From: Planctomycetaceae bacterium | Lineage (GTDB): Bacteria > Planctomycetota > Phycisphaerae > SM23-33 | DNA: 64,000 nucleotides | Reading direction: 5' to 3' | Assembly: GCA_021371965.1 (NCBI GenBank) | Contig: JAJFVE010000183.1 | Location: 46,307 to 110,306, forward strand | In this document: one piece after another, positions 183-18,359 of the stretch | Numbering within the stretch: position 1 is the stretch's first letter | Layout: every line of letters starts with the position of its first letter | Notes under the pieces: model-generated | Seen by the model: only the letters and a program-made list of their open reading frames with translations | Told to the model about the DNA's origin: nothing | Database searches by the model: none | Made by a program: the position numbers and the translations under genes

Positions 183-1103
183 ATGATTGCTATGGCGCAG
201 ACATCAATCTTAACGCGATACTTGAGCCCGGCCGTGCTGGCGCGGATGGCCGATCAGCGGATCGAGGCCAAGCTGCTGGTCGAGGGCAACCTGGCTGGGG
301 CTCACAAATCGCCGCGGCACGGCTTTGCCGTCGAGTTCGCCGGCCATCGCGAGTATGTCCCCGGCGACGACCCCAAGCACATCGACTGGCGCGTGTACTT
401 TACCCGCGAGAAGTATTTCATCAAGCAGTACGAGATGGAGACCAACTTCGTCTGCCACCTCGTGCTGGACGTCAGCGCCTCGATGCGATACGGCGAGGGC
501 AGCGAGCAGAAGATGCAGTACGCTGCCGAGATGGCCGCCACGCTGGGCTATTCGGTCGTGCACCAGAGCGACAAGGTCTCGCTGACGACCTTCGATCAGG
601 GCGTCGTCGACCACGTGCCCCCCAGCAACGCCATGGGGCAGGTCATCCGCATGACGCACGTGCTCGACCAGATCGAGCCGGTCAAGAAGACCGACCTGGG
701 CGCCAGCCTGCAGGTGCTCTGCGGGCGGTTCAAACGCCGCGAGATCGTCATGATCTTCAGCGACTTCTTCTCAGATTTGACAAGCCTGGAAGGCCCGCTG
801 CAGCAACTGCGCTGGAACAAGCACGAGGTCGTGCTCTTCCACACGCTCCATCACGACGAGATTGCCTTCGACCTGGCGGGCATGGTCAAGTTCGTCGGCT
901 TGGAGAGCGACCAGAATCTGCTGGCCCAGCCCGACGACCTGCGCAAGAGCTACCTCGATGCCATGGCCGCCCACACCGCCCAGCTCGAAGACATCTGCAA
1001 CCGCAACCAGATCGAGTATGTCCCCGTCGACACCAGCCGCGACATGGGCGAGGTCCTCTGCGACTACCTGCACCGCCGCAGCCTCCTCAACCGCGGGCGG
1101 TAG
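183..1103 (+). CDS. DUF58 domain-containing protein (VWA-like fold)
   Basis: 306 residues. The DUF58 signature is clear: a YVPGDDPKHIDWR-type motif near residues 58-70, followed by a von Willebrand A-like segment with LVLDVSASM (about residues 93-101), the expected MIDAS-type DxSxS metal site. Members of this family are normally encoded beside a MoxR-family AAA ATPase; any such gene would lie upstream of the window. A role as a MoxR partner acting on membrane or secreted proteins is family knowledge, not visible here. The start at 183 has no clear Shine-Dalgarno sequence, and an in-frame ATG at 192 is an alternative. Confidence 0.9.
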   Translation: MIAMAQTSILTRYLSPAVLARMADQRIEAKLLVEGNLAGAHKSPRHGFAVEFAGHREYVPGDDPKHIDWRVYFTREKYFIKQYEMETNFVCHLVLDVSASMRYGEGSEQKMQYAAEMAATLGYSVVHQSDKVSLTTFDQGVVDHVPPSNAMGQVIRMTHVLDQIEPVKKTDLGASLQVLCGRFKRREIVMIFSDFFSDLTSLEGPLQQLRWNKHEVVLFHTLHHDEIAFDLAGMVKFVGLESDQNLLAQPDDLRKSYLDAMAAHTAQLEDICNRNQIEYVPVDTSRDMGEVLCDYLHRRSLLNRGR

Positions 1104-1198
1104 AGTAAACAGGAAAAATCGGATACGTCAAAAACTCGTCGGAAAGCAGTCCGCGTTCATTTCTCGCACATTTTTCGGCTGTCGCCCCGGTTTTTCTC

Positions 1199-1227
1199 TT
1201 GCGAAATTTCCGAGGTCGGTTTAATAT
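1199..1227 (+). promoter_or_regulatory. Sigma-70-type promoter of the giant surface protein gene
   Basis: TTGCGA (1199-1204), a 17-nt spacer, then TAATAT (1222-1227). This predicts transcription starting near 1235 and a leader of about 155 nt before the ATG at 1391. The rest of the 1104-1390 gap contains only leader hairpins. Confidence 0.6.
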
Positions 1228-1243
1228 ACCCAGTGCACATCGT

Positions 1244-1366
1244 GGCGGCAGGAAACCGCCGTGTGTTTTGTTCGCTGGAGCAGAGGTGCCCAGCCGCAGT
1301 TTCAAGCGTCTTTTTGGGCTGGTGAATGTTTGAATAAGGAGAGGATTTGTTCGCGCGACAAATCCT
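1244..1366 (+). promoter_or_regulatory. Structured 5' leader with two hairpins
   Basis: A GGCGG/CCGCC hairpin lies at 1244-1260. A perfect 9-bp hairpin AGGATTTGT / ACAAATCCT with a 7-nt loop lies at 1342-1366. The second ends only 9 nt before the purine-rich ribosome-binding region (GAGGAG, about 1378-1383) and the ATG at 1391, so it could affect mRNA stability or initiation. It matches no riboswitch class that I recognise. Confidence 0.5.
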
Positions 1367-1390
1367 GTCCGAAGAAAGAGGAGACCTGTC

Positions 1391-4300: not shown

Positions 4301-7300
4301 GGCGATGATGCCTACACGATGTACATCGACGTGAACCAGAACGGCACGTTTGAAGAAAACGAGAGAATCTCCGGCAACTGGGGCGGTCCGCAGTGGGTCA
4401 ATTTGACGCAGAATGAGAGCTACAAAGTCGCCTTTGGGTTTGCCGAAAACGGCGGCGGCGAGAACGTCGGCTTCCAGTTCTGGACGTCGGCGCTGGGGTG
4501 GCAGAATATCAATCCCAGCGCAGCCAATCAGGCCGGCATGTGGAGCTACATCGGGATGACCTATGGCGAAGTGAGCACCTCAGCGAACCTCCTGGTGACC
4601 GCCAGTTCCACGCTGGAAGCCAATTCCGGCACGGCCGTGGATGTCAGCGCGGTGACGCTCAGAGACGGGACGCTGACGATCCAGGGCACGGCGCCGCAGG
4701 TCAATATCGGCGCCTTGAGCGTTGACGCCGCCGCGGGCAGCCAGGTCGGCATCGGCGGGGCGATCCCTGTGTCCGTTACCGGCGCTCTGGACGGCAACAG
4801 CGTTGCCACCACGATCGCCAAGACCGGCAGCGGCACCCTGATCCTCAATGCGGCGGGCGTGAATCTGGAAAATACCACGATCGACGTGCAGCGCGGCACG
4901 CTGGTGGGCAACGCCGCCGGCGCGATGGGCACGGCGGCCATTAAGCTTACCGGCGGCTACAACGGCAGTTACGTCGGCGGCAGCCTGGTGCTCAACAGCC
5001 CCGACGGCTTGGCCACGACCTACGACAACGCCGTGACCGTTCAACACGTGAATCTGGGCAACGGCGATTACGGTCACCAGACGGCCGCTATCATGGCCTC
5101 GGGCGGGGCCATCACGCTGGGCTCGGCCGGCAAGACTCTGACGGTCGAAGCCAACTATGACAACCGCCTGACGCTCCAGGCCCTGCCCGGGGCTTCGTTG
5201 GAGATCGCCAGCGACATCGCGGCCGGCTGGAACTCCCGCGTGGGCGTCTACAAGGGCGATGTGACGTTCGCCGGGACCGGCACACAGAGCTTCTACCATC
5301 TTGGCGTGAACGAGGATGGCAGCGGCAACCGCAACGATGCCGGAAACTACGGCAAGCTGACCGTTGACGGCCCGCTGGTCATCAGCGGCGAGTGGCTGCA
5401 GGTGCGACAGAACGGTCAGTTGATCCTGAATAACTCCCTTGACGTCGGCTATGCGAACTTCGAGAACAATGGCAGCCTGGTGCGCAACGGCACCGGCACG
5501 GCCGGCGACGTGACGATCCGCAACCAGATGAACCTGGGCTACGGCTACACGATCGACACCAGCGCCGCGACGGGCACTGGCTCGACCTTCACGGCCAACG
5601 GCGCCAACCTCTACCTCAACAACGGCTCGACGCTGAAGGCCGACAACCAGATCGCCGCCAGCTACATGGAGGTCAACGGTGGCGCACAGGTGACCGGCGA
5701 CGCCGGGTTTGACGTCAGCGGCACGCTCGTCCTGCAGGGCGGCACGCTGACGACTTCCGGGACAGTCAACGCGCAGAACCTGAACCTGTCCTCCGGCACG
5801 TTCAACCAGAATGGTCAGGCCATCAGCATCAAGGATGGCGGCACCCTGACCGTCGGCAACGGCTTCAATCTGAACCTGACCAGCGGGGCCGCGCTGACCA
5901 TGGGCAGCGGCGCCAGCCTGAACATCAATGGCGGCGGCACCGTCACCACTGACCAGGCTCTTCATGTGTACAACCTGAACATGGACGGCACGCTGAACCT
6001 CACCGGCGCCACCCCGGACGACCGCAACCTCCAGGTCGACGGGCGGCTTTATGTCGGCGGGGCCGATCTGAACATGACCGGCTCGAACCTGGTGACGACG
6101 CTGGGGCAGACGGACATCGAGATCGCCTCTGGCCGCACCCTGACTGTGGATGACGCCTTGAGCGTTCGCCAGCTGACGATCAACGGCACGTTGGTCCGCA
6201 ACGGCGCCGGGGCGGCAGGCGACATCACCGCGACAGGCGACCTGAACCTGCGCGGCAGCGACCTGAACATGACCGGCTCGACGCTGGCCGTGGGCGGGAC
6301 GCTGAACATCGAGAACCGGACCGTGACGGTGGATGCCGGCCAGGCCAACCTGCAGTTGGGCCGCCTGCGCCTTGCCAACGGCACGATCAACGCCCAGACG
6401 ATCACGGCCAATACGTACGGCTTCAGCGGCGGCACCGTCAATGCCAATCTGTCCGGCGGCGGCGGCGACAGCTGGATCTGGTTCGACAACGGTCTGACCG
6501 TTCTTAACGGCACGACCAACAATACGGCCGCCAACTGGATCCTCAATGGCGCCACGGTTCGCGTCAAGCCCAATGGCAGCAACCTCAGCACGACCAATTG
6601 GACCACCTTCTACGGCGGCGGCCCCAACCTGATCGAGAGCAGCGGCACGCTGGCACTGAATATCGGGTACAGCGCCGGCAACGTAAACTGGAACTGGGGC
6701 CAGGGCGGCTTCTCCGCCTACGGCGGCGACCTGGCCGTGACCCTCAATGGCGGTGCTGCGATAACATGGTCGGACAATGGATCGGGCTTCAACGGCCAGC
6801 AGATCTACCTGGGCTCGGCGTATTCGACGCATAATGTCACGTTGACCAACAACATCAACCTCAACTGCGAGGGGAACGTCAATACGCCAAGCCTGACCAC
6901 CCTGGCGACAATGTCGGGCAACCTGACCGGCGGCGGCATGCTGGTCAAGCAGGGCGCCGGCACGCTGCTCCTGACCGGCGACAACAGCGAGCGGACCGGC
7001 TGGACGCGGATCCACCGCGGTGCACTGGATGTCGGAACGAATGGCGCCGGCTTGGGCAGCGGCTGGGTGTGGTTGTATGCCGACAACGCCGACAACACCA
7101 ACAAGGGCGCCGTCCTGCAGGCCAATGGCACTCTGAACATGAACATCGGCTGGACTGAGTCCGGCGCCATCGGCTGGGACAGCAACGGCGGCGGTTTCGC
7201 CGCCCGTGGCGGCGCGCTGACGGTGAACCTCGAAGGCGGCGCGACGCTGTACTGGAACAACCAGGACAACGGTTTCCGCGGCACGAGGCTGATGTTCGGG

Positions 7301-8827
7301 TCGACCACGGCCGACAACGTCGTCACGCTGACCAACGACATCGACGCCCAGAGCGGGTATCGGTACATCCATGTGTACGACAACCCGAACTCGACCGCCG
7401 ACAAGGCCGTCCTCTCCGGCGCCGTCACGAACCTGTGGGGCCTGGAGAAGCGTGGCGACGGCGAACTGCAGATGAACGGTTTCGCCACCATGGGCGAGCA
7501 CGTGCGAATCTATGACGGCGGCACGTTGAGAGTGATCGGCGACCTGCGCAGCGGCAACGCCTACACCGGCACCGACCCCCGCTACGTCGGGGCCTCGGAT
7601 CGCGATATCTATGTCGGCAACGGCGATGGCAACTACACCGGCAACAAACTGATCGTGACGGGCAACGTTTCGGCAAATTACTTCAACGCCGATAACCGCC
7701 CCGGCTCGCTGGTGGACATCAGCGGCAACGTGGCGACCGAGTACCGGTTTGAAATGAACGCCGGCACCGGCCACATCGGCGGCAACCTGCAGACCGGCGA
7801 GCACGTGTATCTGCGGAATGCCACAGTCATGACCGTGGATGGCAGCCTCCGTGCGGGCGTGGTTCAGACCCAGGGCAACGCCGACCGCGGCGTTTACCTC
7901 GAAAGCGGCAGCCGCTTGAGCGTAGGTGGTAGTCTGCAGGGCTGGCACGTTTACACCGACGGCACGGCCGGCACCGGCTACACGGTGGGCGGCGACGTCA
8001 GTGCGTGGCGGTTTGAGCTCAACAAGGGCACGTCGTCTGTCGGCGGAAGCATCATGACGACCGAGCACCTGTACGTTCAGAACGGCAGCCAGTTGACCGT
8101 CGGTGGCAACATCGCCACCCAGGGCAACATCTACGTCCAGAACAACGGCGGCGGGCTGCTGGCCGTCAACGTTGCCGGCGAAGAGGGCAAGGGCATCATC
8201 CAGCTCGGCACCTCGGGCAACGGCAGCATGTATGTAGAGAACGGCACGGCCGAGAACCCCAACCGCCTGAAGGGTAACGGTTCCATCACCGGCAGCCACA
8301 TTTATTTCAACAACAATGCCGGCCTGGAAGGCAACTGGGACATCACGACCAGCAACCTGGTGCAGATAGCCGGCAATGCCTATGTGGCCCCGGGCAACAG
8401 CATCGGGACGATTACGGTTGATGGCAACCTGCAAATGGACAACAACTCCACCTACAACTGGGAGTTGGGCAACGGCGTTGCCGACCTGATCGTGATCAAC
8501 GACGGGCGTCTGACGCTTCAGAACGGTTGGAAGCTGGTTCTGGATGGATACGGCTTTGACAATGCCAGGCTTGTCGACAAGCTGTATCTGTTCCAGTACA
8601 CCGGTACGACGGATTGGACGCAGACGCAGTTCTATGCTCCAATCTGGTCGTTGGGAACCACCACCGACGAGCGGTGGCATACCGAGAGCCTGGCCTTCGT
8701 GCAAGATGCCACTGGCATCTACATCACCGGTCTGAAGGTGGACCCGATTCCCGAGCCGGCGACGATGGCTCTGCTGGCGGTTGGAGCGGTGTTGATGGTG
8801 ATCCGACGTCGTCGTCGCGTGGACTGA
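1391..8827 (+). CDS. Giant PEP-CTERM surface protein with autotransporter-type beta repeats and a PA14-like insert
   Basis: 2478 residues. An N-terminal hydrophobic signal peptide is followed by TDYTWNTGWTNNNW, typical of the start of autotransporter-associated beta-strand repeat proteins. Many degenerate repeats follow (TKTGDGxLxL, GGTLxVxG, NxGxLNLxG), rich in Gly, Asn and Thr, predicting a long beta-helix. Residues about 884-1056 differ: a PA14-like domain (GIYYNDGW, WTGYYKAPETG, DDAYTMYIDVNQNG) that could bind carbohydrate. There is no outer-membrane barrel. The C-terminus is a PEP-CTERM tag: PEPATMALL, a membrane segment, then RRRRRVD. It is therefore likely processed by an exosortase/archaeosortase (none in the window) and placed at the cell surface or in an exopolymer. 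Start chosen for its upstream GAGGAG. Confidence 0.88.
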   Translation: MRNAATTAPVLAMSFLIMCLVAVGPVLATDYTWNTGWTNNNWMDTAQWDPTPVDFSSGNLFYMNSGDRASANGGTFADQLTLYAGSELHLDGDQSATANNLVLDGGTFSGEYRTNLYGAINVASASILRANYNGYQFTINSELNGSGNIQKTGSGYLQLGSTSGNWSGTMTVDESYVEFTSNRSGLRNGTLNLGTAYGAGTLHLINGFNSGTVNVKAGGLAWLNGDESGDVTGGTLNLDGGEIRGEFRTNLYGPINVLSNSTLRANYGGYNFRVHTLNGTADINKTGDGYLELGGQGAGMGNVSTGDWSGTMTISQGYVTSVNRNSLGGGTIKVDGSGGYLEWGSGFNSGTINILSGGSARMSNNFSETNVSGATVNLNGGELFGQAATRIYGDINILGTASTMRANWDGYNFELMGSLHGEMGVAVTKTGDGRLVLYGDSSSTYSGMWDVAYRGLWLENNNALGSAMTSLTIENGGFVRYSGTTNALNVISLTLGGNTFDEGTYNIANTYLSNQGNLINFASYFNVDGGNAGTIYNGLYTMIWNAGADGNWSDSTWTNQPPTYPTANEKAQIDTAYKVTVDDAQAAKAVALSNGGQLYIAPTGTLTISGYLNATSDAGTKVIVDAGATLAAGKGAVNTMDLLGSATVAATTAGQDLAVAEFTASTAGTVLTKTGAGTLALANSGDANFLSNTTLELQGGLVKLTGETLHGATINPLNGGGLAINNPTAVDLTAQNFQVTANGGELQATTADVAFGSVTLADGAELRGSGAGKVSVTGTVLAGAGKSGTLNAVNTDLNMGAYSDGGAAQTLNIKGSGAGRVVMDNSAGGISAANSSIVVQSGTLTAIGTATHDATGGATTVQLAGGKLELSGVPTIGSVNNALTAGIYYNDGWNPDPQLLFEKPGNLLTQVAAETEEDTGKGISNGPGINYNGNFNLLFPGQTRTENFQVAWTGYYKAPETGNQCFNSYWGDDAYTMYIDVNQNGTFEENERISGNWGGPQWVNLTQNESYKVAFGFAENGGGENVGFQFWTSALGWQNINPSAANQAGMWSYIGMTYGEVSTSANLLVTASSTLEANSGTAVDVSAVTLRDGTLTIQGTAPQVNIGALSVDAAAGSQVGIGGAIPVSVTGALDGNSVATTIAKTGSGTLILNAAGVNLENTTIDVQRGTLVGNAAGAMGTAAIKLTGGYNGSYVGGSLVLNSPDGLATTYDNAVTVQHVNLGNGDYGHQTAAIMASGGAITLGSAGKTLTVEANYDNRLTLQALPGASLEIASDIAAGWNSRVGVYKGDVTFAGTGTQSFYHLGVNEDGSGNRNDAGNYGKLTVDGPLVISGEWLQVRQNGQLILNNSLDVGYANFENNGSLVRNGTGTAGDVTIRNQMNLGYGYTIDTSAATGTGSTFTANGANLYLNNGSTLKADNQIAASYMEVNGGAQVTGDAGFDVSGTLVLQGGTLTTSGTVNAQNLNLSSGTFNQNGQAISIKDGGTLTVGNGFNLNLTSGAALTMGSGASLNINGGGTVTTDQALHVYNLNMDGTLNLTGATPDDRNLQVDGRLYVGGADLNMTGSNLVTTLGQTDIEIASGRTLTVDDALSVRQLTINGTLVRNGAGAAGDITATGDLNLRGSDLNMTGSTLAVGGTLNIENRTVTVDAGQANLQLGRLRLANGTINAQTITANTYGFSGGTVNANLSGGGGDSWIWFDNGLTVLNGTTNNTAANWILNGATVRVKPNGSNLSTTNWTTFYGGGPNLIESSGTLALNIGYSAGNVNWNWGQGGFSAYGGDLAVTLNGGAAITWSDNGSGFNGQQIYLGSAYSTHNVTLTNNINLNCEGNVNTPSLTTLATMSGNLTGGGMLVKQGAGTLLLTGDNSERTGWTRIHRGALDVGTNGAGLGSGWVWLYADNADNTNKGAVLQANGTLNMNIGWTESGAIGWDSNGGGFAARGGALTVNLEGGATLYWNNQDNGFRGTRLMFGSTTADNVVTLTNDIDAQSGYRYIHVYDNPNSTADKAVLSGAVTNLWGLEKRGDGELQMNGFATMGEHVRIYDGGTLRVIGDLRSGNAYTGTDPRYVGASDRDIYVGNGDGNYTGNKLIVTGNVSANYFNADNRPGSLVDISGNVATEYRFEMNAGTGHIGGNLQTGEHVYLRNATVMTVDGSLRAGVVQTQGNADRGVYLESGSRLSVGGSLQGWHVYTDGTAGTGYTVGGDVSAWRFELNKGTSSVGGSIMTTEHLYVQNGSQLTVGGNIATQGNIYVQNNGGGLLAVNVAGEEGKGIIQLGTSGNGSMYVENGTAENPNRLKGNGSITGSHIYFNNNAGLEGNWDITTSNLVQIAGNAYVAPGNSIGTITVDGNLQMDNNSTYNWELGNGVADLIVINDGRLTLQNGWKLVLDGYGFDNARLVDKLYLFQYTGTTDWTQTQFYAPIWSLGTTTDERWHTESLAFVQDATGIYITGLKVDPIPEPATMALLAVGAVLMVIRRRRRVD

Positions 8828-8859
8828 TCCCGCGAGCCGCGTCGAATTGTTGAGATGAA

Positions 8860-8891
8860 CGGGCGGCCGTCCCGCGTGGGACGGCCGCCCG
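8860..8891 (+). terminator. Strong hairpin after the giant surface protein gene
   Basis: A perfect 14-bp stem, CGGGCGGCCGTCCC / GGGACGGCCGCCCG, with loop GCGT lies 32 nt after the stop codon. Only a weak T-rich stretch (ATATTT) follows, so this is a terminator or mRNA 3'-protecting hairpin. Confidence 0.7.
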
Positions 8892-8965
8892 CGATATTTG
8901 ACGGGGGTGCGATACAAGGCAATCGAATCCAATTTTGCAGGGAGGAGAAGGTCCATGCCGATGGG

Positions 8966-9026
8966 GAAATCCTAAGCCTCAAACTCTAAATCCTAAACAA
9001 ACTCAAAGTCCAAAGCTTCAAGGTCC
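8966..9026. repeat. Low-complexity word repeat (AAACTC/TCCTAAA type)
   Basis: Degenerate repetition of words such as CTCAAACTC, TAAATCCTAAAC, AACTCAAAGTCC and AAAGCTTCAAGGTCC in an otherwise GC-rich region. It resembles the elements at 29752-29925 and 40445-40500. The rest of the 8828-9182 gap holds the terminator hairpin and the ribF promoter. Confidence 0.6.
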
Positions 9027-9142
9027 CAAACTTTCGCGCGTTCCCGCAAGCCTATGACCGCTCTGCGAGCTTTTTGACTTTGGGCGGCAACAGGCCCTGG
9101 TGTTGATTTAGAGGCGATCCTCCTGGCGTACGGTATCAGATA

Positions 9143-9172
9143 TTGGATATCCCGCATCGTGGGTGCTAGAAT
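9143..9172 (+). promoter_or_regulatory. Putative promoter of ribF, suggesting a leaderless transcript
   Basis: TTGGAT (9143-9148), an 18-nt spacer, TAGAAT (9167-9172). The -10 box ends 10 nt before the ATG at 9183 and no Shine-Dalgarno sequence is present, so the mRNA would be leaderless or nearly so. Confidence 0.5.
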
Positions 9173-9182
9173 CTGACCCTTC

Positions 9183-10130
9183 ATGAACGAGCGGCACATA
9201 CAAGGCTTGGAATTGCTGATCTCGCAGATGCGCGGGTGCGTGCTGACCATCGGCAACTTTGATGGCGTGCATGTGGGCCACCGTCACATCATCGCCCGCG
9301 CGCGGGCGCTGGCCGATGGCGAGGGCGCGCCCGTCGTGGCCATGACCTTCGACCCGCCCCCGGACCTGGTCATGCGGCCCCAGGACGCTCCGCTACGGCT
9401 GACGCTGCCCCAGCGCCGCGCCGAGTTGCTGCTCGAAGCCGGCGCCGACTACGTTGTCACGGCCCGCGCGGACAAAGCCCTGCTGGGCCTCTCGGCGGAA
9501 GACTTCATCACGCGGGTGATCGTGGATCGCTTTGCGCCGCGGCACATGGTCGAGGGCGGCAACTTCTTCTTCGGGGCCGCCCGGGCGGGGAACATCGAGC
9601 TGTTGCGCCGGCGCGGCGCCGAGTTGGGCTTTTTCGTCCACGCGATCGATCCGGTGCTGATCGAACTGGGCAGTGAAACCGTGCAGATATCCAGCACGCT
9701 CATCCGCTCGCTGGTGGCCGCCGGGCGCGTGGAAGACGCCGCCCGCTGCCTGGGCGGGCCTTACACCCTCCAGGGGCCGGTCGTGATCGGGCGGCGCGTC
9801 GGGCGCAGCCTAGGCTTTCCAACGTGCAACATCGACATCGGTCCCCTGGTCATGCCCGCCCAGGGCGTCTACGCCGGATGGGCGCGCGTGGCCGGGCAGG
9901 GCAGTGCGGCCGCAGTCAGCATCGGCACGCAGCCGACGTTCGACGGCGACGAGGTCGTCGTCGAGGCCTTCCTGCTGGACCTTCAGGACAGCGTCTATGA
10001 TAAGATGATGAGCCTGGGCCTGCTGGCACGCCTGCGCGACCAGCAGAGGTTTGCCGGCCCCGAGGCCCTCAAGACTCAGATATCCAAGGACGTGCAGCGT
10101 GTGCGCGAAATCTGCAAACGACGTCTTTAG
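9183..10130 (+). CDS. ribF: Bifunctional riboflavin kinase / FAD synthetase
   Basis: 315 residues, the usual length. The N-terminal FMN adenylyltransferase domain shows the nucleotidyltransferase motif TIGNFDGVHVGHRHII (about residues 22-37) and QISSTLIRSLV. The C-terminal flavokinase domain shows GRRVGRSLGFPTCNI and GVYAGWA. It would convert riboflavin to FMN and then FAD in the cytoplasm. The downstream DHH gene overlaps its 3' end by 32 nt, so the two are probably co-transcribed. The same ribF-nrnA neighbourhood often also carries rbfA/truB in other bacteria; those genes are not here. Confidence 0.96.
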   Translation: MNERHIQGLELLISQMRGCVLTIGNFDGVHVGHRHIIARARALADGEGAPVVAMTFDPPPDLVMRPQDAPLRLTLPQRRAELLLEAGADYVVTARADKALLGLSAEDFITRVIVDRFAPRHMVEGGNFFFGAARAGNIELLRRRGAELGFFVHAIDPVLIELGSETVQISSTLIRSLVAAGRVEDAARCLGGPYTLQGPVVIGRRVGRSLGFPTCNIDIGPLVMPAQGVYAGWARVAGQGSAAAVSIGTQPTFDGDEVVVEAFLLDLQDSVYDKMMSLGLLARLRDQQRFAGPEALKTQISKDVQRVREICKRRL

Positions 10131-11103
10131 CCTGCTGTGCGACCGCCTGACGGGCGCACGGTCGCTGCTTGTCACGACGCACGCGCGCTCCGACGGCGAC
10201 GCGCTGGGCTCGATGGCCGCCCTTGCCGGCGCTGCCCGTGCCGCCGGCAAGAGCGTCGCCTGCGTTTTGCCCGACGCCCTGCCCGAACGGTACGGATTCC
10301 TGTTCCCCGATCAGAAGATCCCTGCCGGCGACCGCTTCGCCGCGCTGGCCGATGCGGCCGACCTCGTCGTGATCGTCGATACGTGCGCCGCCAGCCAGCT
10401 CGAGGGAATCGCCGAGGCTATCGTCGCGCGACGCGACAAGGTGGCCGTGGTGGACCATCACCGCACGGTCGACGACCTCGGCAGCGTGCAGTGGATCGAC
10501 GCCTCCGCTGCCGCGGCGGGAATCATGGTCATGCAGGTCATCGAGCACCTGGAGTGGCCGATGCCCCTCGCCGTCGCCGAGGCGCTGATGGTGGCCGTCA
10601 CCACCGACACCGGATGGCTGCACTTTGCCAACACCGACGCTGCCGCCCTGCGGGCGGTCGCCCAGTGCGTGGCCGCCGGCGTGCGGCCGGACCTGCTCTA
10701 CAAAAAGCTCTACCAGACCGACCGCCCCGAGCGGCTCAAGCTGATCGGGCGGGTGCTGGAGAGCCTGGAGTTGCATTGTGACGGGGCGCTGGCGGCCATG
10801 ACCATCCGCAAGAGCGACTTCCTGGCTACCGGCGCCACGTGCGAAGAGACGGAGAATCTTGTCAATGAGGCCCTGCGCGTCGCGTCGGTCGAGACGGCCA
10901 TCATCCTGGTCGAGAACGGAGCGCTGGTGCGCGTGAGCCTCCGCAGCCGCGACGCCATCGACGTGGCGGAGATCGCCCGCCAGTACGGCGGTGGCGGCCA
11001 CCGCCGAGCCGCCGGCGTGCGCCTGGCCGGCGATATCGACGAACTGAAAACCCAACTCGTGCAGCGCTGCACCGTGGCGCTCAAAGCAGCCGGCGTCGGG
11101 TAA
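10099..11103 (+). CDS. nrnA: DHH/DHHA1 phosphoesterase, NrnA-like nanoRNase / pAp phosphatase
   Basis: About 334 residues from a GTG start at 10099, chosen because AAGGA (10086-10090) sits 8 nt upstream. Motifs in order: THARSDGDALGS (DHH motif I), VIVDTC, VAVVDHHRT (the DHH motif), TDTGWLHFANTD, and the C-terminal DHHA1 GGGGHRRAAGVRL. The family degrades 2-5 nt oligoribonucleotides and dephosphorylates 3'-phosphoadenosine 5'-phosphate, using Mn2+. Overlap with ribF implies translational coupling. The substrate preference cannot be read from sequence alone. Confidence 0.92.
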   Translation: MCAKSANDVFSLLCDRLTGARSLLVTTHARSDGDALGSMAALAGAARAAGKSVACVLPDALPERYGFLFPDQKIPAGDRFAALADAADLVVIVDTCAASQLEGIAEAIVARRDKVAVVDHHRTVDDLGSVQWIDASAAAAGIMVMQVIEHLEWPMPLAVAEALMVAVTTDTGWLHFANTDAAALRAVAQCVAAGVRPDLLYKKLYQTDRPERLKLIGRVLESLELHCDGALAAMTIRKSDFLATGATCEETENLVNEALRVASVETAIILVENGALVRVSLRSRDAIDVAEIARQYGGGGHRRAAGVRLAGDIDELKTQLVQRCTVALKAAGVG

Positions 11104-11112
11104 GACAAAACC

Positions 11113-11228
11113 TACCACAGAGACAACGAGAAGAGCTGAGGGGGTAAAAGCAAGATTTCGATACTAACAGTTTGTTTTTCACATCGAGTTTTGTTTTTAC
11201 CCTCATCTTCCTCTGAGACTCTGTGGTA
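11113..11228. repeat. Long imperfect inverted repeat of CACAGAGAC words
   Basis: The left arm begins TACCACAGAGAC and includes GGGGGTAAAA. The right arm includes TTTTACCCTC and ends GACTCTGTGGTA. The arms enclose an AT-rich loop. It lies between nrnA and the promoter of the riboswitch transcript and may also end the nrnA transcript. A related CACAGAGGCAC word occurs near 19720. Confidence 0.7.
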
Positions 11229-11248
11229 AGTTTTTTTCAGAACGCCGC

Positions 11249-11277
11249 TTGACAGGAGCGGCCGGAGGGGCTAGAAG
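11249..11277 (+). promoter_or_regulatory. Promoter of the cobalamin-riboswitch transcript
   Basis: TTGACA (11249-11254), exactly 17 nt, TAGAAG (11272-11277). The predicted start near 11284 falls right at the 5' edge of the riboswitch aptamer. Confidence 0.75.
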
Positions 11278-11284
11278 AGTCCCA

Positions 11285-11455
11285 TCAGCAGGTGTTCGTC
11301 GACGACGAACCCAAGGGAAGGCCGTGAAAATCGGCCGCGGACGCGCCGCTGTAACCGGTGACGACCGCTGCACAGGCCACTGGATCGTTGTGTTAACGGT
11401 CCGGGAAGGCGCAGCGGAAGGTAGACCCGGAAGCCAGAAGACCTGCCTGCGGATA
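11285..11455 (+). promoter_or_regulatory. Cobalamin (adenosylcobalamin-class) riboswitch
   Basis: All conserved blocks are present in order: GCAGGTG (11288-11294), an AAGGGAA segment, CGTGAAAATCG within a GGCC-flanked stem, GCGGACGCGCCGCTGTAACC, GGCCACTGG, CCGGGAAGGC, and the B12 box AGCCAGAAGACCTGCC (11432-11447), whose ACCTGC pairs with GCAGGT at the 5' end. A variable hairpin TTCGTC/GACGAA lies inside. The riboswitch is followed by an intrinsic terminator, which argues for transcriptional OFF control by B12. The downstream gene is a PEP-CTERM protein, not a known B12 transport or synthesis gene. Confidence 0.95.
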
Positions 11456-11514
11456 ACCTGGTGCACCACCGCGAGTGAGTGGGTGCCGGTAACAATCCGC
11501 CTTCCAGCGCATTG

Positions 11515-11554
11515 TCCCGGAACTTGCCCCCGCGAGTGTCCGGGATTTTTGTTT
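11515..11554 (+). terminator. Intrinsic terminator (expression platform) after the cobalamin riboswitch
   Basis: Stem TCCCGGA (11515-11521) / TCCGGGA (11539-11545) followed directly by TTTTTGTTT. The spacing, about 60 nt after the B12 box and 145 nt before the start codon, fits a B12-dependent transcription attenuator. The remaining leader (11555-11698) holds a 14-bp palindrome AAACGGGCCCGTTT at 11574-11587 and the ribosome-binding site. Confidence 0.85.
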
Positions 11555-11698
11555 GCCGCTCGCGAGAGGCGGAAAACGGGCCCGTTTCCCTCTTCGCGCC
11601 GGCACTTCAAGAACTCCCCCAGGTTTCTGTTCCCCGAGACGGTCCGCGTGCGGGCTGTCTGTTCCGTCTGTGCCCGAGGGCACAAAAGGAGTTGTGAG

Positions 11699-12457
11699 AT
11701 GTTCGGACGTAAAGGGTTGTTTCGTGCAGCAGCGGTGTGCAGCGTGCTGGCCTTGGCCGCGTCGGCCCAGGCCGATGTATTTTCAGGCATCGAGGTTAAG
11801 TCGTGGACCGGTGATATCAACGCCCAGAACAAGGCGCTGCTGGTACTGGATTTCAGCCATTCCGCCATACCGGGCGGATCGTACGCCTTCGGGTATCGCT
11901 GGAATGATGGCGACACTGTGGCGCGTGTTGACGACGGTAGCGAAGGCTACGATCCTTACGTCAACGGATACACTGACAGCTGGGGCACGACGCACCCGGC
12001 TCACGGGGCGACGGTGGACGCTGGGTCGTCCGAGGCCATGCTGATAGTGCTGAAGACCGCGAATGTGATTGGCGTGACCTATCACACGCACAAAGATTAC
12101 GGATTCGGGCTCGACGGCCTGTCATACAACGGGTCAAGCATCATGGCTTCCGATCCGTACTGGATGCTGGCATATCCGTCTTTCTGGTGGGATGGCAACG
12201 CCTCGTACCAGGACTTCGGCGGCAATACGCAGCCGGCGGTCGCTCCCAACGGCGAACTGACCCCGTCCCAACTCGGCGTGGGCATGCGTGATCTGGCCAA
12301 CGGTTTCATCGACGCATGGGTGCAGGAAGACGTGCTCTCGCATGGTTACAATCAAGTGTACGTGCCGCTGATTCCCACGACCAACGCCCCCGAGCCGATG
12401 ACGCTGGGGCTGTTGTTGGTCGGCGGCTTGGGACTGCTGCGCCGGCGCAGTGCGTAA
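11699..12457 (+). CDS. B12-riboswitch-controlled PEP-CTERM secreted protein of unknown function
   Basis: 252 residues from ATG 11699, preceded by AGGAG (11686-11690). A signal peptide ends near AASAQA (residues about 20-25). The mature part is rich in Trp, Tyr, Gly and Asp (YAFGYRWNDGD, YHTHKDYGFGLDG, DPYWMLAYPSFWWDG) and has no cysteines. It ends in a PEP-CTERM tag: APEPMTLGLLLVGG then LLRRRSA. I recognise no enzymatic motif. Its position behind a full cobalamin riboswitch suggests a role in capturing or using corrinoids at the cell surface; this is inference. Only a hairpin without a T-run separates it from the next gene, so read-through is plausible. Confidence 0.9.
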   Translation: MFGRKGLFRAAAVCSVLALAASAQADVFSGIEVKSWTGDINAQNKALLVLDFSHSAIPGGSYAFGYRWNDGDTVARVDDGSEGYDPYVNGYTDSWGTTHPAHGATVDAGSSEAMLIVLKTANVIGVTYHTHKDYGFGLDGLSYNGSSIMASDPYWMLAYPSFWWDGNASYQDFGGNTQPAVAPNGELTPSQLGVGMRDLANGFIDAWVQEDVLSHGYNQVYVPLIPTTNAPEPMTLGLLLVGGLGLLRRRSA

Positions 12458-12477
12458 TTCGATAACCTCCCAACAGA

Positions 12478-12513
12478 CCGGACCCGGGCCCTTGCCATGG
12501 GGCCCGGGTTCGG
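12478..12513 (+). terminator. Hairpin between the PEP-CTERM gene and the pseudopilin gene
   Basis: CCGGACCCGGGCCC pairs with GGGCCCGGGTTCGG (one G-U pair) around an 8-nt loop. No T-run follows, so it may be a partial terminator or an mRNA-stabilising stem rather than a full stop. Confidence 0.6.
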
Positions 12514-12534
12514 TATCGTTGGCTTAAGATTGAG

Positions 12535-13329
12535 ATGATCCAGGCAATGAACAAGACGATGCGGTCCGGCCGGCGCGGCTTCACCTTGATGGAGCTGCTG
12601 ACGGTGATCGCCATTATCAGCGTGCTGACGGCGATCCTGATTCCGACCGTCTCGGGCGCTCTGGAGTCGGCGCGGGCCGTGCAGTGCCAGACGAACCTGC
12701 GCTACATGGGCACGTCCATCAACAATTACCGCCGCGACCACGCCGACCAGTTCCCGCCGTATCGGGCGGCGTACACGACGGCGTATGAAGGCACGCGGGC
12801 GTTTACGTACATCTACAGTTGGGGCGCGGCCACCAACCCGGTCAACCAGCGAGCCAGTTGGATGTATCCGTACTGGGACTTTCACTGCCTGCTTTGCCCG
12901 TCGATGAACTGGAAAGACGTTGTGCCCCAGGCGGGGATCATCGAGCCGACCACGACGTACGGGTACAACGCTTTCTTCCTGGACGGCAAATTCATGACTC
13001 GCGTTGGGGCGCCCACGATCGAGGTTGCCCGCAAGACCGGCGCCGACATCAAGCGCCCCTCGCAGTTGATCGTCTATGCCGACTCGGCCTTGTACTGGGC
13101 TCCGGCCAGCGTGCCGATCTTCCAGAACAGCACGTACCTGGAGCCGCCCGTACCCGGCGCCGGCGGCACGGTGACGCCGACCAACCACTTCCGCCACAGC
13201 GGCCAGTGCGGCGTCTTGTTTGCATCGGGCAGTACCGGCTCGCTGCCGCCGGGCCAGGGCATGCTCCTCAACGCGCAGCGCAAGCTGGGATTCGTCAGCA
13301 CCGTCAATGACCCGTACTATTCCAATTAG
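12535..13329 (+). CDS. Type II secretion pseudopilin-like protein (prepilin N-terminal methylation motif)
   Basis: 264 residues. The prepilin peptidase site is clear: RRGFTLMELLTVIAIISVL, where cleavage would fall after Gly and Glu+5 is present, followed by the hydrophobic helix. Planctomycete proteins of this class usually end with an H-X9-DG motif; here the equivalent region reads RHSGQCGVLFASGS, so the DG is replaced by SG. The start could be ATG 12535 or ATG 12547. It lies 77 nt after the riboswitch-controlled PEP-CTERM gene and overlaps the following lipoprotein gene by 23 nt, so the three may form one operon. The function is unknown. Confidence 0.88.
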   Translation: MIQAMNKTMRSGRRGFTLMELLTVIAIISVLTAILIPTVSGALESARAVQCQTNLRYMGTSINNYRRDHADQFPPYRAAYTTAYEGTRAFTYIYSWGAATNPVNQRASWMYPYWDFHCLLCPSMNWKDVVPQAGIIEPTTTYGYNAFFLDGKFMTRVGAPTIEVARKTGADIKRPSQLIVYADSALYWAPASVPIFQNSTYLEPPVPGAGGTVTPTNHFRHSGQCGVLFASGSTGSLPPGQGMLLNAQRKLGFVSTVNDPYYSN

Positions 13330-13714
13330 CCTGCTGGCGGGCGTTCTGGCGGCCGTCTGCGGCTGCTCGGGCGAATATCCGCGCAAGGAACTCGGCGGCG
13401 ACTCGCCGCGGGCGGTGCAGGTCAAGGACATGATCACCAAGCTCCGCACGGCCTCGGCGGAGGAACTCGACGCCGTGATCGCCGCGCAGGTGGTCGCTGC
13501 CGGCCCCAACGACGGTGGGCGGCGCGAGATGGCGGTGTTTACCCTCAAGCAGATCGCCAATGCCTCGGACGTGCAGATCGTGATGCTCGACCAGTATGGC
13601 AGCGACGTCGTCCGCGCGACCCTCCGCCTGAGCGACGACATTCAGCCGCGCACGCTCTGCATGATGCTGGTCAGCGGTCCCCAAGGCCAACTCCTCTGGG
13701 CCGGACCCGGCTGA
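13307..13714 (+). CDS. Small predicted lipoprotein, unknown function
   Basis: 135 residues from ATG 13307, a start that gives a typical lipoprotein signal peptide (MTRTIPISLLAGVLAAVCGC, lipobox AVCGC at residues 15-19). The mature part is helical, with a segment of amphipathic helices (VKDMITKLRTASAEELDAVI) and a beta-rich end (IVMLDQYGSDVVRATLRL). It overlaps the pseudopilin gene by 23 nt, so translation is probably coupled. I recognise no family. Context suggests it works with the pseudopilin and possibly the B12-regulated surface protein. Confidence 0.75.
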   Translation: MTRTIPISLLAGVLAAVCGCSGEYPRKELGGDSPRAVQVKDMITKLRTASAEELDAVIAAQVVAAGPNDGGRREMAVFTLKQIANASDVQIVMLDQYGSDVVRATLRLSDDIQPRTLCMMLVSGPQGQLLWAGPG

Positions 13715-13768
13715 GCCCTCGCTCGCAGTGGCCGCGCCAGCGGCTGCAATTCACGCCCTCACCTTTCC

Positions 13769-13798
13769 TTGCGATTGTTCCCGGAGCGGGGCTATGAT
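13769..13798 (+). promoter_or_regulatory. Promoter of the RND efflux operon
   Basis: TTGCGA (13769-13774), 18-nt spacer, TATGAT (13793-13798). The transcript would start near 13806, about 40 nt before the first gene, and separates the efflux operon from the B12-linked genes. Confidence 0.6.
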
Positions 13799-13845
13799 GG
13801 GTTTGACATTGTGCCGCTGCGACCGCAGCATGCAAGGAGTTGGCG

Positions 13846-14955
13846 ATGAAGCGACTGTTCAGGGTGGCGATCAAAAGCGTTCTTGTTCTGGTGCTGGCCG
13901 GATTTGTTGTCCTCCTGATGCTCTACCTTGACGGCGTCTTCAGCCCGAAGGTCGCTCCCGACACGGGCAAGGAAATGGCGTCGGCCGCCCGCAGTGCGCT
14001 GGCCCGGCCGCAAGCGTCGGCCGAGGCCAGGCTGGTCGACCTGCCGCTGGTCGAAGAGGCGCCGGGGACCATCCGTCCGCTGCGGGAGACGGCGTTGGCG
14101 TCGAAGGTGCGCGAGCCGGAGAAGGTGATCGAGGTCAACGTCATCGCGGGGCAGGAAGTGCATAAGGGCGACGTGCTGGTCAAACTCGACCCGTCCACCT
14201 GGCAGAACCGCCGTGAAATGGCCCAGGCCAAGCTGAGCATCGCCCAGGCCTCGCGCGACGAGGCGCAGAAGAATCTCGATCGCATCAAGGAGGCTTTCAG
14301 CAAGAACGTCGCCACTGCCAGTGAGGTCGATACCGCCAGGTACCGCCTCGAAGGCCTGGCCGGCGAGGTTGTGGCCGCACAGCGGGCGCTGGATGAATCG
14401 ACACAGAATCTCAGCTACACCGAGATTCGCTCGCCCATGGACGCGGTAGTGGTCGACAAGCGCGTGGACATCGGCGACACCGTCGCGCCGGGGCAGGTGC
14501 TGGTGAGCCTCTACGACCGAATGCAGATGATTGCCAACGTGCGCGAAGGCCTCATCAAGCGCCTGGCCAAGGGGCAGGACATCGACGTGGTCATCGACGA
14601 TCTTGGCGGGCCCTGCACGGGCACAATCAGCGAGATCGTGCCCCTGGCCGACCCGCTCACGAGAACGTTCCAGGTGAAAGTCGTCGGACCGTGCCGCAGC
14701 GGCGTGAGGCCGGGGATGTACGCCAAACTTCGCGTCCCGCTGGGCCAGGCCAAGGTGCTGGTCATTCCCCCCGCGGCCGTGGAGCATGTGGGACAGTTGA
14801 CGATGGTTACGGTGGCGGGTCCGCGGGGCCTCGAGCGGCGCAGCGTGCAGTTGGGCCGCTCTCTCACCATCGATGCCAAGCCCCAGGTCGAGGTGCTGGC
14901 GGGTCTCAAGGGCGGCGAGAAAGTGGTGCTGCCGGCGGGAGAGGCCCAGCCATGA
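13846..14955 (+). CDS. RND efflux periplasmic adaptor subunit (HlyD/MFP family)
   Basis: 369 residues from ATG 13846, with AAGGAG at 13834-13839. An N-terminal membrane anchor (about residues 8-28) precedes a lipoyl-type domain (VNVIAGQEVHKGDVLVKLD), a coiled-coil hairpin (residues about 125-185), the second lipoyl half (IRSPMDAVVVDKRVDIGDTV), and the beta-barrel and membrane-proximal domains (VRPGMYAKLRV, VIPPAAVEH). It links the inner-membrane RND pump to an outer-membrane channel. No TolC-type gene is adjacent; the nearest is at 24471. Its stop overlaps the pump start (ATGA). Confidence 0.94.
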   Translation: MKRLFRVAIKSVLVLVLAGFVVLLMLYLDGVFSPKVAPDTGKEMASAARSALARPQASAEARLVDLPLVEEAPGTIRPLRETALASKVREPEKVIEVNVIAGQEVHKGDVLVKLDPSTWQNRREMAQAKLSIAQASRDEAQKNLDRIKEAFSKNVATASEVDTARYRLEGLAGEVVAAQRALDESTQNLSYTEIRSPMDAVVVDKRVDIGDTVAPGQVLVSLYDRMQMIANVREGLIKRLAKGQDIDVVIDDLGGPCTGTISEIVPLADPLTRTFQVKVVGPCRSGVRPGMYAKLRVPLGQAKVLVIPPAAVEHVGQLTMVTVAGPRGLERRSVQLGRSLTIDAKPQVEVLAGLKGGEKVVLPAGEAQP

Positions 14956-17900
14956 GCGACCATTCGACGCAAGGCTCGCCCCGGGGCGGCGGCGGATTCA
15001 CTAACGGGATCGTCCGCACGTTCCTCGACAGCAACCTGCCGATGATCCTGCTGATCCTCTCGATGGCCATCGGCGCCACGGCCTTGATGCTCACGCCGCG
15101 CGAGGAAGACCCGCAGATCGTCGTGCCGATGGCCGACGTGTACGTGAACTTTCCCGGTCACAGCGCCGCGCAGGTCGAGCAGCTCGTCAGCACGCCGCTG
15201 GAGCGCATGCTCTACCAGATCGATGGGGTGGAGTACGTCTACTCGATGTCGCGCCAGGACCAGGCGATCATCACCGTTCGCTTCCTGGTGGGCGAAGACC
15301 GCGAACGCAGCCTCGTGAAACTGTACAAGAAGATCGACGAGAACGTCGACCTGGCGCCGCCGGGCGTGACGGGCTGGGTCGTCAAGCCTGTGGAGATCGA
15401 CGACGTGCCCATCGTCACCCTCACGCTGCAGGGCGCCGGCAGCGACAGCTACGCCCTGCGCCGCCTCGGCGAGGAAATGGTCGCTCGCCTCGCGGCCGTC
15501 CCGGACGTCTCGCGAGCCTACGTGGTGGGCGGTCAGCCGCGCAAGGCACTGGTCTATCTCGACCGCCAGCGGATGCGCGGGTTCAACGTCGCGCCGCTGG
15601 AGATTCAGCGCGCCCTGACGGCATCGAACGTGCGGCTCACCGCGGGTGACTTTACGCGGACCGACGAGGAATACGCCGTCGAGAGCGGACGCGTCTTCGA
15701 GCGGGTCGACGACCTGCGGCAACTGGTGGTGGGGGTCTTCAACGCCGCGCCGGTCTATCTCAAGGACGTGGCCGACATCAAAGACGGCCCCGACGAGGTC
15801 GTCTCGTACGTGCGCCACTCCTGGGGCCAGGGACGCGGGTTCGAGGCCCGGCCGGGGGCCACCGGCACGCTGGTGGGCCAGGCGGCCTCGGGCTCCGACG
15901 CCTCGCCCAACTCCCAGCCGGCCGTCACCATCGCCCTGTCCAAGAAGAAAGGCGCCAACGCCGTCGCCGTCTCGCGGGATATTCTCGCCGCGGCTGCGAG
16001 GCTCAAAGCCGACGTCGTTCCCGGCAACGTGGACGTGGTCATTACGCGCAACACGGGGCTGAACTCCGACGAAAAGGTCAACGACCTGATCGAGGCCTTG
16101 GGCGTGGCGCTGGTGCTGGCGGTGGTAGTGCTGACGATTTCCATGGGTTGGCGCGAGAGCCTGATCGTTGCCCTGGCCGTGCCGGTGGTGTTCGGCCTGA
16201 CGCTGGGCGTGAACCTGCTGGCGGGCCTTACGATCAATCGCGTGACGCTGTTCGCGCTGATCCTGTCGCTGGGCCTGCTCGTCGACGACCCGATCGTCGA
16301 CGTCGAGAACATCGTGCGCCACTTCTTCCTGCGCCGAAAGGCTTCGCAGGAGATCGTGCTCGAGGCCGTCAGCGAAATCCGCCCGCCGCTGATCTCGGCC
16401 ACCCTGGCCGTCATCGCCTCCTTCCTGCCGCTGCTGTTCATCACCGGAATGATGGGCCCGTACATGAGACCGATGGCGATGAACGTGCCCGTGGCCATGC
16501 TGATGTCAATGGTCGTCGCGTTCACCATTACGCCCTGGCTGGCCTACCACCTGCTGCGGCGGCGGTACAACGCCATGGGCGGCGGCGAGGCGGCCCCGGC
16601 GGACCCTCATGCCACCGGCGACCTGACGAGCACGCGGATGTACCGCGTGTTTCGCCCCATCATGCACGGCCTGCTGCGCACCCGCCGCGCGAGCTGGGCA
16701 TTCCTGGCCGTCATGGGCCTGCTGCTGATGTTCGCCGCCGGCCTGGCCATGATGCGCGTCGTGCCGCTGAAGATGCTTCCCTACGGCAACAAGAGCGAGC
16801 TGCAACTCGTGCTGGATTTTGATCGTGGCACGACGCTCGAACGCGCCGATGCGGCCGTACGCGATATGGAGCGGTATCTCGCCGCCGTCCCTGAAATCAC
16901 CGACTATACGTCTTATGTCGGTCTGGCAGCGCCCATGGACTTCAACGGCATGGTCCGCCATTACTACCTGAGGCGCGGGGCAAACGTGGCTGACATTCAG
17001 ATCAACCTCGTCGGCCGCAAGCACCGCCATGACCAGACGCACGCCCTGGCCCTGCGGATGCGCAATGATCTGACGCGCATCGCCAATGAGCACGCCGTGC
17101 GCCTGAAGATCGTCGAGGCCCCGCCCGGACCGCCGGTGCTCTCGACAGTGGCGGCCGAGGTGTACGGTCAGGAGAACACGCCCTATGCCGAGGTGGTTTC
17201 CGCGGCCGCGACCGTGCGACAGCGGCTGGCGAAGGAACCCGGCGTCGTCGATGTCGACGACATGTCTGAGGCCATGGAGGCGAAACTGCGGTTCGTGCCT
17301 GACCAGCAGAAGGCGGCGCTCAACGGCATCTCGGTGGACGAGATCGCCCGTACGCAGCAGATGCTGCTGGGCGGCGCGACGGGCGGCGTGGTGCAGCAGC
17401 GCGCGGAGCGAAACCCGCTGATGATCGATCTGCGCCTGCCCCGGGCCCAGCGATCCAGCGAGCAGGACCTGGCCAACGTCTCGCTCAAGAGCGCCTCGGG
17501 GGCGATGGTCCCCTTGGCCGAGTTGGGGCGATGGGACGTGGTCACTGCCGATCAGACCATCTACCACAAGAATCTGCGCCCGGTGATGTACGTTCTGGCC
17601 GAGATGGCCGGCCGTCCGCCGTCTGAGGCTGTGCTGGATATCCAGGCTGATCGTCGCGACGCGGCCTCCGCCGCGCCGGCTGAGCCCAAGCCGCTGGGGC
17701 GGCGCTCGTACCTGTCCAACGGCGGGGGCATTGCTTGGGCCGTGCCCGCGGGCATCGACGTCAGCTTCACCGGCGAGGGCGAGTGGAAGATCACGCTGGA
17801 TGTCTTCCGCGACATGGGCCTGGCATTCATCGCGGCGCTGATCGCCATTTACATCCTGTTGGTGCACCAGACGCGCAGTTTTGTCATCCCGCTGGTGGTG

Positions 17901-18359
17901 ATGATGGCCATTCCCCTGACGATCATCGGGATCATGCCCGGCTTCTGGCTGCTCAATGTCATCAGCGGCGGCAGCGTGGGCGGGTTCCCCACGCCGACGT
18001 TCTTCACCGCCACGGCCATGATCGGCATGATCGCCCTGGCGGGGATCGTTACGCGCAGCTCGATTATCATCGTGGACTTTATCCACCTCTCACTGTCGCG
18101 CGGGGCGAACCTCAAAGAGGCTATCATGCAAAGTTGCGTGGTGCGCCTGCGCCCGATCCTGCTGACAGCCGGCGTGGCGATGCTCTCGGCGCTGCCCATC
18201 GCGACAGACCCGATCTTCTCGGGCCTGGCGTGGGCATTGATCTTCGGCCTGCTGGCCTCGACGGTCTTCACCCTGCTGGTGGTGCCGGTGGTGTATTACC
18301 TGCTCTATGCCAACAAACCCGGCCACGGTTTGCCGCCACAAGGGCCAGATATTGACTAG
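14952..18359 (+). CDS. RND family efflux transporter permease (AcrB/HAE-type)
   Basis: 1135 residues from ATG 14952, the usual RND length. It has twelve predicted transmembrane segments in two halves, each with a large periplasmic region. TM4 carries the proton-relay pair in LGLLVDDPIVDVENIV (AcrB Asp407/Asp408 equivalents). In TM10 the AcrB Lys940 region reads GIVTRSSIIIVDF, with Arg in place of Lys, so it belongs to a non-classical RND subgroup. Low-complexity Gly/Ala/Ser-rich stretches lie near residues 295-320 and 895-915. It should export hydrophobic compounds or lipids by proton antiport; the substrate is unknown. Confidence 0.95.
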   Translation: MSDHSTQGSPRGGGGFTNGIVRTFLDSNLPMILLILSMAIGATALMLTPREEDPQIVVPMADVYVNFPGHSAAQVEQLVSTPLERMLYQIDGVEYVYSMSRQDQAIITVRFLVGEDRERSLVKLYKKIDENVDLAPPGVTGWVVKPVEIDDVPIVTLTLQGAGSDSYALRRLGEEMVARLAAVPDVSRAYVVGGQPRKALVYLDRQRMRGFNVAPLEIQRALTASNVRLTAGDFTRTDEEYAVESGRVFERVDDLRQLVVGVFNAAPVYLKDVADIKDGPDEVVSYVRHSWGQGRGFEARPGATGTLVGQAASGSDASPNSQPAVTIALSKKKGANAVAVSRDILAAAARLKADVVPGNVDVVITRNTGLNSDEKVNDLIEALGVALVLAVVVLTISMGWRESLIVALAVPVVFGLTLGVNLLAGLTINRVTLFALILSLGLLVDDPIVDVENIVRHFFLRRKASQEIVLEAVSEIRPPLISATLAVIASFLPLLFITGMMGPYMRPMAMNVPVAMLMSMVVAFTITPWLAYHLLRRRYNAMGGGEAAPADPHATGDLTSTRMYRVFRPIMHGLLRTRRASWAFLAVMGLLLMFAAGLAMMRVVPLKMLPYGNKSELQLVLDFDRGTTLERADAAVRDMERYLAAVPEITDYTSYVGLAAPMDFNGMVRHYYLRRGANVADIQINLVGRKHRHDQTHALALRMRNDLTRIANEHAVRLKIVEAPPGPPVLSTVAAEVYGQENTPYAEVVSAAATVRQRLAKEPGVVDVDDMSEAMEAKLRFVPDQQKAALNGISVDEIARTQQMLLGGATGGVVQQRAERNPLMIDLRLPRAQRSSEQDLANVSLKSASGAMVPLAELGRWDVVTADQTIYHKNLRPVMYVLAEMAGRPPSEAVLDIQADRRDAASAAPAEPKPLGRRSYLSNGGGIAWAVPAGIDVSFTGEGEWKITLDVFRDMGLAFIAALIAIYILLVHQTRSFVIPLVVMMAIPLTIIGIMPGFWLLNVISGGSVGGFPTPTFFTATAMIGMIALAGIVTRSSIIIVDFIHLSLSRGANLKEAIMQSCVVRLRPILLTAGVAMLSALPIATDPIFSGLAWALIFGLLASTVFTLLVVPVVYYLLYANKPGHGLPPQGPDID

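Follow-up and report, generated by a model that had tools for sequence, protein, structure and literature searches.

The stretch analysed here comprises 64,000 nt of a Planctomycetaceae bacterium (contig JAJFVE010000183.1, positions 46,307 to 110,306, forward strand) and is referred to as the window. It contains a cobalamin riboswitch followed by genes for a PEP-CTERM protein, a prepilin-like protein and a small lipoprotein. The PEP-CTERM protein is the presumed cobamide binder and is called the binder below; compared loci are numbered L and genomes G. The features of this region are as follows.

11249..11277, plus strand: probable promoter, read from the sequence (TTGACA, 17 nt, TAGAAG; weak second hexamer)
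11273..11464, plus strand: cobalamin riboswitch aptamer RF00174, full length, 106.9 bits
11514..11546, plus strand: intrinsic terminator of the riboswitch, a hairpin with five consecutive T at its end
11699..12457, plus strand: PEP-CTERM protein of 252 aa with a predicted transcobalamin-beta-like (beta-grasp) domain, presumed cobamide binder
12477..12514, plus strand: hairpin of 16 pairs between the binder and prepilin genes, without a T run, conserved in the closest relative (L053)
12535..13329, plus strand: prepilin or pseudopilin-like protein of 264 aa, from a family recurring in cobalamin-riboswitch loci
13307..13714, plus strand: small predicted lipoprotein of 135 aa, with a lipobox-like N terminus judged by eye

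The riboswitch leader and the proteins behind it

The initial annotation described a consensus promoter, a complete cobalamin aptamer and an intrinsic terminator ahead of the PEP-CTERM gene. Concerning the promoter, the description holds for the first hexamer, TTGACA (11249-11254), which is perfect, but not for the second, TAGAAG, which matches the consensus at four of six positions. In the alignment with L053 the counterpart TTGACA-N17-TAGAAA is retained; the site is absent from the output of a simple promoter scan. The aptamer is complete, as described: the RF00174 match covers model positions 1-189 of 189, its 106.9 bits (E 8.9e-26) lie far above the gathering score of 31.5, and it is the sole Rfam match at gathering level within the window. 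The terminator is also borne out (14 pairs, -21.5 kcal/mol; z -5.15 relative to 200 shuffled sequences), and was missed by a simple terminator scanner. The leader at 11300-11699 shares 94-99% identity with L053.

The binder has a signal-like N terminus and a C-terminal PEP-CTERM tail (PEP, membrane helix, basic end). It passes the cut-off of TIGR02595 PEP_CTERM (20.1 vs 16), which agrees with the annotated PEP-CTERM protein directly behind the riboswitch, and falls below that of the Pfam PEP-CTERM family (15 vs 20.7); no further domain is found above any cut-off in the profile scans of the window proteins. Residues 27-230 contain seven Trp and 13 Tyr. The predicted structure has the beta-grasp fold of the DUF4430/transcobalamin-like SLBB group, that is, the fold of the beta domain with which transcobalamin and intrinsic factor hold B12. 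The alpha/alpha toroid of transcobalamin is not seen in the binder, and a PDB sequence search with the binder matched no carrier protein.

The second protein carries the N-terminal cleavage and methylation motif of prepilins (N_methyl PF07963: 28.5 vs 21.2; TIGR02532: 30 vs 16.3) and also matches SBP_bac_10/DUF1559 (27.4 vs a cut-off of 23.3). The family is discrete: 31 proteins are found at E <= 7e-36 with at least 38% identity over most of the length, followed by two shorter proteins and then a gap until E 6e-12. Its predicted structure gives generic pilin matches alone, with no sign of ligand binding. The lipoprotein gene overlaps the prepilin gene by 23 nt, and its product has no family above cut-off in the profile scans; the annotated pair of mutually overlapping prepilin-type and lipoprotein genes is thus confirmed.

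Recurrence of the gene set behind cobalamin riboswitches

Protein searches with the binder returned at least 50 distinct proteins, the query counted, and all eight with a named organism are from planctomycetes. A first genome scan gave seven loci (six in planctomycete metagenome-assembled genomes, one in a genome labelled Lentisphaerae), and a cobalamin riboswitch lies just upstream in all seven. Within the class of G002, whose record is titled Phycisphaerae, the binder family is found in 103 of the 397 genomes at E <= 1e-12. From the 111 rows of this search 100 further loci were taken, two fragment pairs being merged; five matches were identical with L001, L002, L004, L005 and L006, rows of G185 and G329 (contig edges) and of G213 and G134 (weakest) were left out, and L003 and L007 come from the first scan, so that 107 loci are counted overall. 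Except in the search of 20 genomes described below, the stretches compared are centred on binder matches.

In 84 of these 107 loci, which belong to 78 genomes, RF00174 lies no more than 2 kb ahead of the binder gene and in its orientation (median distance 316 nt); none of the loci has it on the opposite strand. The recurrence of the 252-residue protein's homologues behind cobalamin riboswitches, as looked for in the initial annotation, is therefore widespread. Among the 60 best-scoring loci added by the class search the riboswitch is present in 57, and one of the misses has only 312 nt of contig upstream. In a control with DUF4430 protein loci of the same phylum, mostly with about 1.5 kb on each side, no riboswitch was found near any of 14. 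A phylum-wide search gave binder matches in 17 of 392 genomes at E <= 1e-15; three of these genomes are new, with four loci, and in three of the four the riboswitch precedes the binder gene on its strand.

In 15 genomes, chosen by hand among the riboswitch-positive ones, 16 cobalamin riboswitches were found, each of them ahead of a member of the binder family; at most 90 first-look candidates were scored per genome, so a weak riboswitch could be missed. Among 20 class genomes with no binder match at E <= 1e-12, 19 contain cobalamin riboswitches, 25 in total. In 16 of these 25 loci (about 14 separate places, as there are two overlapping pairs; two of the matches are weak) a match to the prepilin family or to S340 lies behind the riboswitch on the same strand, hence the gene set extends beyond the binder profile. 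No target was recognised for the remaining nine, one of which has a weak match to the binder cluster, and further genes of the class may also be targets of the cobalamin riboswitch.

S340 is a second secreted protein, frequent beside the prepilin in riboswitch loci and fused to the binder in four. The prepilin family is present in 78 of the 85 riboswitch loci and the lipoprotein family in 16, the window counted in both cases. The one S340 member scanned, that of L007 (5946-6968), matched no family save a dockerin domain, which takes the place of PEP-CTERM at its end and points to different surface anchors; in 15 of 58 S340 reading frames a PEP-like motif lies close to the end, so that S340 anchoring is not uniform.

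Some loci have paired riboswitches. In G008 (L190/L207) two lie about 100 nt apart on opposite strands, an S340 relative behind one and a prepilin relative behind the other. G016 (L197/L209) and G245 (L144) have two on one strand, about 170 nt and about 3 kb apart, respectively.

Genes like those for B12 transport adjoin the operon in a few genomes. L063 and L078 have btuF-, btuD- and btuC-like genes behind the prepilin on the same strand, L001 and L002 have btuF-C-D-like genes ahead of ribF, nrnA and the riboswitch, and L148 and L104 contain a btuF-like gene within the region compared. Altogether a btuF-like gene is found in six of the 84 riboswitch loci, the stretch covered being mostly 2 kb upstream and 4.6 kb downstream. 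No btuB is found beside the operon, and no TonB-dependent receptor among the eight window proteins scanned (183-14955). In L002 (4067-4747) a Dph6-like ATP pyrophosphatase (PF01902) directly precedes the btuF-btuC-like genes, and a relative of it lies near the operon in L070.

The 15 chosen genomes were also searched for B12-related functions; their completeness is not given, which makes absences among them soft. A B12-binding domain and a secretin are matched in all 15, FecCD permeases are above cut-off in 13 and the precorrin isomerase CbiC is matched in none. A TonB-dependent receptor is above cut-off in eight. TonB matches that share a contig with the riboswitch (G075, G276, G236) are about 100 kb or more away from it, and the others are on other contigs. 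In G236 the operon (L079) lies on a contig of 4,101,647 bases in a genome given as about 4.2 Mb, with FecCD matches and no TonB receptor above cut-off.

Binder and prepilin have diverged to different extents. Between the window and L053 the prepilin retains 88% protein identity; the binder gene at about 11800-12400 shows 38-56% identity with no blastn match, its signal peptide and tail still being recognisable. The binder core has about 21% identity versus 90% for the soluble part of the prepilin. Similar pairs are L054/L137 (26 vs 75) and L002/L103 (25 vs 72), and of 1024 pairs with prepilin identity of at least 45%, 993 have a binder that has diverged further than the prepilin, the core limits being set by a simple motif rule and the pairs not being independent. 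Several close pairs have no swap (e.g. 94 vs 98). The sequences fit a binder core replaced by recombination or one strongly diversified, and are compatible with both.

Probable cobamide capture and its alternatives

The initial annotation proposed a B12-repressed apparatus for corrinoid capture, and the results support this proposal. In our judgement the locus is probably a B12-repressed operon which captures cobamides at the cell surface, based on the RF00174 score, the recurrence of the riboswitch, the btuF/D/C-like neighbours, the predicted fold and the finding of no other cobalamin riboswitch in the 15 genomes. Cobamide capture is likely, and pilus-driven import of the cobamide no more than possible. 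When cobamide is scarce, the terminator would not form and the operon would be expressed. The binder would then be exported and sorted via its PEP-CTERM tail, holding cobamide in its beta-grasp domain; S340, where present, may be the other half of the clamp, like the alpha/alpha toroid in transcobalamin. A secretin-linked machine of the cell, for pili or for secretion, would assemble the prepilin, which might display or secrete the binder, or assist the ligand in crossing the outer membrane and reaching BtuF-BtuCD.

Several observations weigh against this interpretation. Concerning the fold, Foldseek's own best E-value for the binder is 0.01, with none at 0.001; Pfam DUF4430 (PF14478) is matched by none of 42 members of the binder family, and hhalign of the family against DUF4430 gives a probability of about 1% or less, placing one short stretch of 16-19 columns alone. 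Concerning the gene set, 23 of the 107 relatives have no riboswitch (20 of the 40 weakest and three of the 60 best), and the window contains neither S340 nor a BtuF- or BtuC-like match. The TonB receptors in eight of the 15 genomes make ordinary uptake possible in those eight. Secretins and prepilins are widespread anyway, so that finding them does not link them to B12. Only 13 of 29 loci have a binder-to-prepilin gap below 60 nt, and the hairpin at 12477-12514 could separate the prepilin from the binder transcript in the window genome.

This hairpin, which the initial annotation had noted between the first two genes, is real (-36.7 kcal/mol, z -6.22, GC pairs) and unchanged in L053. It bears on an arrangement in which only the binder gene is B12-controlled in the window genome and the prepilin and lipoprotein genes form a separate unit. 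The strong conserved hairpin, the 77 nt between the annotated ends of the binder and prepilin genes, and a promoter-like site at 12492-12519 (nine of 12 consensus positions) speak for such a division, but the hairpin has no T run, the relatives are often tightly packed (the S340-to-prepilin gap is below 60 nt in 40 of 45 loci, besides the binder-to-prepilin gaps already given) and the gene set recurs across loci. The gap counts use gene starts set by a motif rule, which gives 102 nt for the 77-nt gap of the window. We regard this division as unlikely; the hairpin may serve in the processing or stability of the mRNA.

The remaining alternatives concern what the proteins do. PEP-CTERM proteins and pilins are generally associated with surfaces and the extracellular matrix, in keeping with a riboswitch that, when B12 is lacking, alters the surface or biofilm through proteins which never touch the vitamin. 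This appears very unlikely to us, as the predicted fold matches B12 carriers, btuF/D/C-like genes stand right after the prepilin in two loci and no riboswitch target other than the binder family was found in the 15 genomes. A closer competitor, compatible with capture and differing in the import step, is that the binder scavenges cobamide on the surface or on vesicles, in the manner of BtuG/BtuJ in Bacteroides, and passes it to a conventional TonB receptor encoded elsewhere, the prepilin serving only for secretion or display as a type II secretion pseudopilin. We give this somewhat less than an even chance. It accords with the TonB receptors of eight genomes, the secretins of all 15 and the riboswitch-controlled surface B12-binding lipoproteins beside BtuB that are established in Bacteroides, according to the available parts of the reports (PMC13398666, PMC12751083); the distance of the TonB matches from the riboswitch and their absence above cut-off from G236 count against it.

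A bolder version of surface capture would have cobamides cross the outer membrane with no TonB receptor at all: a riboswitch-induced pseudopilus, tipped or loaded with the binder (S340 being the other half of the clamp), would pull the vitamin through the secretin to BtuF, and the binder core would be exchanged from strain to strain with the machine itself unchanged. Swapping of this sort would fit an exposed receptor that is under attack, or a changing cobamide preference. We consider this version rather improbable.

Known systems and neighbouring genes

The operon looks like an undescribed way of scavenging B12. The uptake of large, scarce nutrients through the planctomycete outer membrane is, to our knowledge, little understood. 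The binder has no detectable sequence relation to the beta domain of transcobalamin, intrinsic factor and haptocorrin, which belongs to the DUF4430 (PF14478) SLBB clade, and PEP-CTERM sorting, riboswitch control and a prepilin partner are features that distinguish the present operon from this clade. A transcobalamin-like clade in planctomycetes is noted by Burroughs 2007 (PMC1796856), in whose text, as far as it was available, the word 'riboswitch' and words beginning with 'pili' do not occur. At the sequence level, membership of the binder in DUF4430 is not supported by the Pfam and hhalign results. Membership in DUF4465/BtuJ is rejected for lack of a match and because the predicted fold differs; DUF4465 is absent among the Pfam matches of the 42 members at E up to 10, the HMMER filters dropping most weak matches.

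The BtuG, BtuH, BtuJ and BtuK proteins of Bacteroides are riboswitch-controlled surface B12-binding lipoproteins found with BtuB, based on the accessible portions of three papers (PMC12751083, PMC13398666, PMC8941943). Two of these (PMC13398666, PMC12751083), in the same portions, show what is shared with the present loci: riboswitch-controlled surface cobamide binders, here predicted, that are encoded near B12 transport genes, here in a few genomes; one of the Bacteroides proteins is a fusion of two binders (BtuGH). As described in those portions, BtuJ/DUF4465 is a beta-jellyroll (PMC13398666), unlike the predicted beta-grasp of the binder, the Bacteroides loci carry BtuB, of which none is seen in the present loci, and a pilin is not mentioned for the Bacteroides systems (PMC13398666, PMC12751083). 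Also, the Bacteroides binders are lipid-anchored and the present one is a PEP-CTERM protein.

Mucisphaera calidilacus belongs to Phycisphaerae. Its DUF4465 protein 'Pan' is, in the part of the report at hand, a secreted B12 binder which was purified pink with B12 (PMC13398666); fold and family differ from those of the present binder, and neither the binder nor its relatives match DUF4465. Compared with type IV pilins and type II secretion pseudopilins, the present prepilin is a discrete family recurring in cobalamin-riboswitch loci. Among the open-licence literature matches listed, none was seen to associate a cobalamin riboswitch with PEP-CTERM proteins or with such prepilins; the terms 'cobalamin riboswitch' and 'PEP-CTERM' occur together in one paper, a denitrifying-reactor study, as seen in extract. 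A loose parallel is a pilin reported, in the title of a paper, to enhance iron acquisition (PMC13170364).

In 78 genomes a cobalamin riboswitch is followed by a defined set of genes that pairs a predicted intrinsic-factor-like binder with a pilin. The binder would correspond, among bacteria, to the carriers of B12 in humans, but with an unusual partner. The gene set also allows a role of pili in vitamin uptake to be tested directly, and it suggests what families hitherto without a function may do.

Upstream of the riboswitch lie two genes which are not judged part of the system and are likewise upstream in the relatives L001, L002 and L053:

9183..11103, plus strand: ribF and an nrnA-like DHH gene

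Further upstream of ribF (1391-8827, plus strand) a giant surface protein is encoded, a PEP-CTERM protein of 2478 residues with PATR repeats and a PA14 domain. Just past the lipoprotein gene (13846-18359) lies a gene for an HlyD-like protein, followed by a long reading frame, which we take to resemble an RND efflux pump.

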